DNA of 56,308 nt from Candidatus Schekmanbacteria bacterium (GTDB lineage Bacteria > SZUA-182). The stretch is taken from NCBI GenBank assembly GCA_016235675.1, contig JACRJN010000054.1, forward strand, positions 1-56,308, written 5' to 3'. This document shows positions 12,130-38,279 of the stretch, in pieces. The position numbers were made by a program, and so were the translations under genes. A model generated the notes under the pieces. That model made no database searches, was not told where the DNA came from, and saw only the letters and a list, made by a program, of their open reading frames with translations. Every line of letters starts with the position of its first letter. Positions within the stretch are counted from its first letter, which is position 1.

Positions 12130-12480
12130 CTATTTACCGTGACAATCTTCGCACTTAGTCGGACCTTTCTTTTCTTTCTGGTGACAGCCCTTACATTTAT
12201 CATGATAGGCATCTTTTATGGCCGGAGCTTCACCCTTCTTCTCCTGATGGCATGTCTTACAGGCTTTCATCGGTTCGCCTTCTTTTGCCTTATGATGACA
12301 AACCTTGCAATCGCCGTTTCTTTTTTGATGCTCATGATGTTTGAAGCCGGCTACCGCCTTGCTTTTGCCGTTGAAATCCAACTTGATTTCAGCCGGGCCG
12401 TTATCCGTAGCTAACACTACGCTGGCAGTGGTCATCAACAAAGCTAGCCCACCCAATACCGCCACGATTTTTTTGCTCAT
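12130..12480 (-). CDS. Small periplasmic tetraheme cytochrome c (c3/c7-like)
   Basis: A 116-aa precursor: signal peptide MSKKIVAVLGGLALLMTTASVVLA, then a mature domain with four CxxCH heme sites (CKVCHH, CKTCH, CKGCH, CEDCH). Additional histidines (GFKHHEHQ, DAYHDK) can act as distal ligands for bis-His hemes. Size and spacing fit the class III c3/c7 group, soluble electron carriers in the periplasm of anaerobes. GTG AAG AGA precedes the ATG, but the ATG at 12480, 8 nt after GGAGG, is the better start. A close paralogue lies at 13192-13554 on the same strand, sharing the sequence LDFNGKSK before the heme region. Confidence 0.9.
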   Translation of the reverse strand: MSKKIVAVLGGLALLMTTASVVLATDNGPAEIKLDFNGKSKAVAGFKHHEHQKRNGDCKVCHHKAKEGEPMKACKTCHQEKKGEAPAIKDAYHDKCKGCHQKEKKGPTKCEDCHGK

Positions 12481-12513
12481 TCTCTTCACCTCCCTCCTTT
12501 GATTTATAAATAA

Positions 12514-12571
12514 TGTCGTTACCTGATTTATCAGGTAGAGCCCGTGGTACCTGATAAATCAGGTAACGACA
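12514..12571. repeat. Palindrome TGTCGTTACCTGATTTATCAGGTA / complement
   Basis: A 24-bp perfect inverted repeat (12514-12537 and 12548-12571), each arm itself containing ACCTGATnnATCAGGT-type symmetry. It lies in the leader of the cytochrome gene. A related half (CCTGATAAATCAGGTAACTACA) occurs in the element at 51416-51518. Confidence 0.88.
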
Positions 12572-12579
12572 ATCGTATG

Positions 12580-12896
12580 ATAACCTGAGTTCGGGATAAG
12601 GTATCAAGGCAATCTATTGTAGGGGCTATAGTTTCCCCGCCCTGGTGGGAATGCGCCATTCACGCACAATTGTACCAAGGGCGGGGAAACCCCCAATGCT
12701 GTTGACTTAAGGAATTTTGTTTTGATGTTTATGTAGCGCAGACCTTTAGGTCTGCTACGGCCACAGGGGTCAAATGCCGCGTTTGGGCAGGGCTAAAGCC
12801 CTGCGCTACGTCTTAAGTCAACAGCATTGGGGGAAACCCCGCCCCTACAAGTTTTGTTGCCCACAACCTTATGAAATTATCCCGAACTCAGGTTAT
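12580..12896. repeat. Four-layer nested palindromic element
   Basis: Layer 1: ATAACCTGAGTTCGGGATAA (12580-12599) and its exact complement (12877-12896). Layer 2: a family J element TTGTAGGGGC...GCCCCTACAA (12617-12850). Layer 3: a family K element CCAATGCTGTTGACTTAAG (from 12693) with complement ending at 12830, interrupting the J element at GGGGAAACC. Layer 4: family B units AGACCTTTAGGTCTGC and GCAGGGCTAAAGCCCTGC (about 12732-12811). An intact J-type arm order is visible for comparison at 38168-38262. No gene is seen in 12897-13191 apart from a small TTTAGCCCTG unit. Confidence 0.92.
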
Positions 12897-13191: not shown

Positions 13192-13554
13192 CTACTTTCT
13201 TTCGTGGCAGTCTTTGCAATCCTTATTCGGACCCTTACCTTCCTTTTGATGACAACCCTTACATCTGGTATGGTAAGCATCCTTCATTGCCGGCTTCTCA
13301 CCTTCGGCCTTTTCGCCGTGACAGGTTTTACAAGCCTTGGGAGCATCAGTATCGCCATCTTTATGATGACATACCTTACAGTCCCCTTTCAGTCTTTCTT
13401 GATGGGCATGATGCGGGAAGTTAGCAACATGCTTGCTTTTCCCGTTAAAATCCAAAGTAGGAGATGCCGGCCCGGAACCAACTTTCCCGGCCACAGCTCC
13501 GCTTACAGTCGCCATCAATATAATACCGCTCAATATCGCTGTAATTTTCTTCAA
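13192..13554 (-). CDS. Small periplasmic tetraheme cytochrome c, paralogue of 12130-12480
   Basis: A 120-aa precursor with signal peptide (LKKITAILSGIILMATVSGAVAG) and four CxxCH sites (CKVCHH, CKTCH, CKGCH, CKDCH). The mature part aligns along its whole length with the other cytochrome (LDFNGKSK, HHAHQERLKGDCKVCHH, MKDAYHTRCKGCHQKE). The open frame extends further upstream, but TTG at 13554 sits just before the signal peptide and about 8 nt after a GGGGG site, so I take it as the start. It probably carries electrons in the periplasm alongside its paralogue. The duplication suggests dose or partner specialisation. No reductase or quinol oxidase gene is adjacent. Confidence 0.88.
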   Translation of the reverse strand: MKKITAILSGIILMATVSGAVAGKVGSGPASPTLDFNGKSKHVANFPHHAHQERLKGDCKVCHHKDGDTDAPKACKTCHGEKAEGEKPAMKDAYHTRCKGCHQKEGKGPNKDCKDCHERK

Positions 13555-14066
13555 TCCACTCACCCCCTTTCGTTGTTTAAATTTAAATCTAAGAATATAA
13601 CTGACCAAGATTTTAACAAATATTCTTAATCCCCAAAAAGGACATTCATTATCTAATTTATTCTGTTTTAATTTTTCATGATATTTAAGGTGAGATAATT
13701 TTGCGGAATAGCTCTTGGTTTTCAACCAGGCAACGGGTTTTGATTTAGAAGTAGATTAAATCAAAGCAGCACCGTTTCCAAGACGATTATTCATTTTAAG
13801 CATTTTCCACATTTAAGGAATCAAACTATTCCTTTTCACCATCATCGCATGAAAAACCTCAAAAACTACTGGAATTGCATTTTGAAACATCTCGGTAACG
13901 GCACCGTAATTATATTATCATTTACGAATCATTGTCAAGAAATATTTTAGGCTTGTCATGCTGTATTATCAACTAGTTGCAGCAAGCATATTCTTTTGCC
14001 TGTTTTATGCACACAATCAATGTATACATAATCACAATCGGCTGAACTTTTTTAATTAGGTTTACC
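13555..14066. other. Non-coding gap upstream of the cytochrome gene
   Basis: AT-rich, divergent region between the minus-strand cytochrome and the plus-strand signalling block. It contains a weak inverted repeat (GCACCGTTTCCAAG at 13769 and CTCGGTAACGGCAC at 13891) and a small hairpin AAGGAAT-N6-ATTCCTT (about 13815-13834). A 33-codon frame at 13849 has no ribosome binding site. No gene is supported. Confidence 0.5.
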
Positions 14067-38156: not shown

Positions 38157-38279
38157 AAAGGAACTTTCTTGTAGGGGCGGGGTTTCCCCGCCCTGGTGGG
38201 GATGGAACCCTTACTCACAATTGTACCAAGGGCGGGGAGACTAAAGCCCCTCATTCACCCTTGTACACATTAAAGTTCC
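38157..38279. repeat. Palindromic repeat, family J, inside another inverted pair
   Basis: Outer pair AAGGAACTTT (from 38157) and AAAGTTCCTT (to about 38280). Inner family J element TTGTAGGGGCGGGGTTTCCCCGCCCTGGTGGG...ACCAAGGGCGGGGA (about 38169-38240). It fills the gap before the hypothetical gene at 38294, together with the element at 37939; no gene is present in 37887-38293. Confidence 0.8.

Follow-up and report, generated by a model that had tools for sequence, protein, structure and literature searches.

Within the window, by which we mean the whole 56,308-nucleotide stretch of DNA analysed here, one composite repeat has jumped into another. Four inverted repeats—O, J, K and B, from the outside inward—lie concentrically at 12583–12893, and at this locus the event on display is the entry of a ready-made unit, K with B inside it, into a second ready-made unit, O with J inside it: one insertion, not three in succession. 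To judge by their sequences, all four families appear to be mobile. The explanation that we propose as a whole, of one mobile element lodged in another, each with a REPIN passenger aboard beforehand, seems to us highly probable. The parts are as follows.

12583–12893, strand not given: O, the outermost MITE, with IS982-type ends and TIR ACCTGAGTTCGGGATAA; the same TIR bounds fragments of IS982 transposase in the relative G007.
12619–12848, strand not given: J, a GTAG-tagged REPIN of two inverted REP hairpins, with K in the hairpin of its right arm; delimited from 14 uninterrupted copies.
12683–12693, + strand: left copy of K's target duplication (TSD), 11 bp, GGGGAAACCCC; from the window sequence and a survey of TSDs in the K family.
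12694–12829, strand not given: K, an IS4-subgroup-like MITE with an 18-bp TIR, CAATGCTGTTGACTTAAG, carrying B; delimited from family-wide ends and TSDs.
12733–12809, strand not given: B, a GTAG-tagged REPIN, GTAGCGCAGACCTTTAGGTCTGC ... GCAGGGCTAAAGCCCTGCGCTAC, the cargo of K; delimited from standalone copies in genome G001.
12830–12840, + strand: right copy of K's TSD, 11 bp, GGGGAAACCCC; same basis as the left copy.

The 317-bp region contains 22 exact 12-mer inverted-repeat seeds, where 500 first-order Markov simulations lead one to expect 0.006; its longest exact arm, of 22 nt, compares with 12 nt at most in the simulations. The concentric arms match over 34 nt at 85% for O, 33 nt at 91% for the J/K junction and 23 nt at 83% for B. 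Each of the four belongs to a dispersed repeat family; the full nest, used as a query, finds 69 matches in the genome, and the four-part arrangement occurs once. A preliminary description had recognized four concentric families and taken the palindromes for mobile, non-autonomous elements, and on both points it was right. Family counts here rest on pattern and sequence searches and on individually retrieved loci, in the draft genome of an uncultured bacterium, of 190 contigs and 89.65% completeness; its sparsely sampled phylum is represented by nine genomes. Synteny with named relatives proved unusable, the best protein match being 65% identical. Two related genes for small multi-haem c-type cytochromes with CxxCH motifs flank the nest on the minus strand (12130–12489 and 13192–13725), and a separate perfect palindrome with 24-nt arms, TGTCGTTACCTGATTTATCAGGTA, lies beside it at 12514–12571, upstream of the first of these genes.

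The insertion of K into J can be read with confidence because the site is found both occupied, with an 11-bp duplication, and empty. In the window, the right arm of J runs GGGCGGGGAAACCCC, then K, then GGGGAAACCCCGCCCC; the 11-bp GGGGAAACCCC is doubled perfectly, and K sits in the hairpin loop of the arm between the two direct repeats. O with J but without K is found at two other loci, L014 (contig C182, 240–414) and L015 (C153, 22004–22171). Thus K does split J, as had been claimed, and these two loci are better unoccupied copies than the J near 38168 offered earlier. GAAAC, suggested as the target duplication, is instead only the centre of the real one. B was inside K before the jump, since about ten places hold the K+B unit: 135–137 bp long (136 bp in the window), dispersed, 94–99% identical, and set in many unrelated flanks with TSDs of its own. 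J, likewise, was inside O, since O+J is found three times in the genome with the same interior. Of the order of insertion proposed earlier, then, the entry of K+B into O+J stands, but the successive insertion of all four does not, both units having been formed already.

K is the best characterized of the four. Its end pattern matches 224 times in the genome, against 4 for the reversed control. This genome and two relatives of its class together yielded 71 K-type elements; a TSD of 9–12 bp with at most one mismatch flanks 32 of them, where shuffled pairing predicts 0.86. One subfamily has GTTG ends and 11-bp repeats, often in GC palindromes; another has GTTC ends and 10-bp repeats centred on TA. 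Palindromic targets of the GTTG subfamily include GGGGAAACCCC (twice), GGGGTTTCCCC, GGGCACAGCCC and GGGCTTGTCCC, and the 11-bp sites are more symmetrical than background in both their inner positions (2.13 against 1.25 of 5 pairs) and their outer ones (3.27 against 2.03 of 8). Some K sites are plainly non-palindromic. Sites that fall in one repeat family do not count as independent, so the figures support a preference but do not measure it. The general claim that these palindromes prefer palindromic targets holds only in part: GTTG-subfamily K is often found in GC hairpins, O seems to use TANNTA sites, and the REPINs show no target duplication; target preference is family-specific. At two loci, L212 and L160, the copies of the target on either side of K are inverted, not direct (GGGGTCTCCCC/GGGGAGACCCC at L212), which gives the impression that the flank was corrected into a perfect palindrome.

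The ends of K fit the published IS4-subgroup consensus, -AATR--------WTW, and 12–15 of their 18 positions are identical to those of Escherichia coli IS4, depending on variant and end: 13 in the window's variant, compared with the left end, and 14–15 in some other variants, the highest figure coming from one in G005. These likenesses suggest a transposase of the IS4 subgroup; K works in the manner of an IS4 MITE, and its parent was probably an IS4 element. The target of K also resembles GGGNNNNNCCC, the target of IS231. An IS231 origin was considered and set aside, the ends of K fitting subgroup IS4 better than those of IS231, which begin CAT... (PMC2266710). A search for an autonomous parent, with K ends around a YREK DDE transposase, came back empty: in nine (incomplete) genomes of the class, PF01609 loci lack K TIRs as IS ends, and Nterm_IS4 (PF13006) is absent from the genomes searched. 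Two TIR pairs in G005 about 3.2–3.4 kb apart (L199, L200) were rejected as autonomous K, for they enclose ordinary genes, and L312 was rejected as a parent, its transposase gene being interrupted by K.

What K carries varies. Its TIRs frame five palindromic cargoes or more: B, GTCATTGCGAG, GTCATCCCCGAA, CTCCC and further REPs in this genome, and in G005 a different palindrome, of the GTCATTCTGAG type; K elements with different cargoes have little in common beyond their TIRs. No K without cargo was recovered among the K elements. One candidate, L209 (G000:C68:3698–3727), is 30 bp long and consists of two overlapping TIRs with neither cargo nor TSD; it looks like a recombination product and was not counted as an empty K. 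At L220 (G000:C116:4720–5330), a third MITE-like family, with TIR GGGACTTGGAA and carrying the GTCATTGCGAG palindrome, occupies positions 42–314, within the left TIR of a K-B element and with an apparent TTA duplication.

The O-end pattern matches 82 times in the genome, against 4 for the reversed control. A 6-bp TANNTA duplication flanks 4 of 11 copies where 0.45 would be expected, the shuffle maximum being 4; no clear TSD was found at the window copy. In G007, the O TIR adjoins the C-termini of IS982 transposases at L327 and L321 (CCTGAGTTCGACATAA / CCTGAGTTCGGGATAA); the C-terminus matches NF033520 with E 2.8e-16, a partial match that falls below the whole-protein cut-off. The enzyme that mobilizes O would, on this showing, belong to the IS982 family. 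As cargo, O carries J, a GTAGTCCC REP pair, or a CCCCTCTTTGCC palindrome. A likeness between the O+J interior and IS982 ends was tested and is not significant (0.06). At many contig ends of G000, an O end of the variant CTGAGTTCGGAATAA is found no more than about 30 bp from the break, which suggests a recently spread, near-identical element that broke the assembly.

J and B are another kind of element. All 14 uninterrupted J copies, 75–82 bp long, start with GTAG and end with CTAC, and none of the 14 is bounded by a TSD of 3 bp or more; dozens of J matches occur in the genome, and many copies stand alone. B likewise has GTAG and CTAC at its outer ends in the window, and at all nine G001 loci inspected it is a standalone REPIN with no K end in the locus. 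The same genome encodes a REP-associated tyrosine transposase (RAYT) flanked by GTAG hairpins (NF047646, 100.5 bits, cut-off 80), the flanking REP of which, GTAGCACAGGC..., is related to those of B and J but different; in this genome, neither B nor J was found directly beside a RAYT. In G005, a degraded RAYT sits among J-type REPINs. J and B were probably spread by enzymes of the RAYT type. At L303 (G005:C59, 1420–1826), a J-type REPIN splits the degraded REP-associated transposase ORF, and a near-identical REPIN lies just beyond the end of the gene.

The families also nest the other way round. K is found inside J at L002, L212 and L237, but J is found inside K at L273, with an 11-bp TSD, ACAATGTTACG, and K-B occupies a B hairpin at L217, where the TSD, GCTTTAGCCC, is 10 bp long. 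The four are independent of one another: all occur in other combinations.

Could the nest be a single composite repeat instead, whose four palindromes arose and spread together, and whose K-less copies are deletions? K+B and O+J do each act as composite units. The preliminary description would have accepted this had every J carried the same K and B, but 14 distinct two-ended J copies are without K. J stands alone at many sites, K+B sits in many unrelated flanks with its own TSDs, the full arrangement exists only once, and for L014 and L015 to have lost exactly K and one 11-bp repeat would take something much like transposition. Copies that are unoccupied, or placed independently, largely refute this account, which we find scarcely credible. 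Template switching during replication, by which hairpin-templated repair rather than insertion would generate the nested symmetry, would suit the inverted flanks at L212 and L160 and the J arms at L014, which look symmetrized. It would not readily create an 11-bp direct repeat around a sequence 95–99% identical elsewhere, however, and as the main process it is refuted by the direct TSDs of the K elements; as the origin of the nest it is highly improbable, but it may act after insertion.

There remains the assembly itself, which might have merged short reads that came from O+J in one place and K+B in another. With 190 contigs, and many O ends at contig ends, the genome invites the suspicion, and because it is incomplete, its repeat-rich joins carry some risk. 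But a misjoin would not restore both halves of J with a perfect TSD, and other contigs, at L002 and L237, also have K inside J between 11-bp repeats. A chimera is very unlikely.

Insertion of one loaded MITE into another, then, is the history we prefer. O, an IS982-type MITE with the REPIN J as cargo, would have stood between the two cytochrome genes; K, an IS4-type MITE with the REPIN B as cargo, would then have moved by cut and paste, with an IS4-family transposase supplied in trans. That enzyme's staggered cut would have fallen on GGGGAAACCCC, the 11-bp loop region of the right hairpin of J, and repair of the gaps would have doubled those 11 bp. How K and O first came by their cargo we infer rather than observe. 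A bolder suggestion, which on balance we doubt, is that MITE ends (K and O) are exchangeable frames, short TIRs repeatedly loaded with palindromic passengers (REPINs B and J, and the GTCATTGCGAG, GTCATCCCCGAA and CTCCC types), such that RAYT single-strand systems and DDE systems form a mutual carrier network, each the other's target and cargo.

Bacterial MITEs and REPINs are usually studied family by family. Where they insert into each other in both directions, with readable junctions and TSDs, several families can be placed together on one relative clock, and two questions become open to test: how palindromic cargo gets into MITEs, and whether hairpins between genes are safe landing sites that spare the genes.

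In the literature searched, which covered few subscription papers, we found no earlier description of such a stack. Its parts have precedents, nevertheless. QMITE2 of Coxiella burnetii, a MITE with direct repeats of 7–11 nt, holds a GTAG REP that is targeted by IS1111 (PMC5896051), but there the invader is autonomous, whereas here it is a MITE with a second REPIN, and nesting runs in both directions. ISRm22, of the IS4 family, enters the axis of REP palindromes and has a palindromic target consensus (PMC1525189); it is autonomous, with 6-bp repeats, whereas K is non-autonomous, with 10–11-bp repeats, and enters several palindrome families and some non-palindromic sites. The IS4 subgroup has the end consensus given above and target repeats of 10–13 bp (PMC2266710); K agrees in its ends and in its 10–11-bp TSDs, and differs in that no transposase with K ends was found. 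O resembles the IS982 family in its TIR, which starts with AC and in G007 lies against the C-termini of IS982 transposases, and perhaps in a short, AT-rich TSD, but is a non-coding derivative of about 160–311 bp with REPIN or other palindromic cargo. J and B resemble GTAG REPINs (PMC3733652, PMC3116915, PMC2817692) in their two inverted hairpins, GTAG at both ends, high copy number, the absence of a TSD in the case of J, and the presence in the genome of a RAYT with GTAG hairpins; they differ in having no RAYT directly beside them here, and in serving also as cargo inside DDE-type MITEs. What this locus adds is depth, a single stack made of two MITE and two REPIN families, nesting that is reciprocal, and the use of the same ends around different cargoes. 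Each step resembles known biology; the depth and the two-way nesting are unusual.
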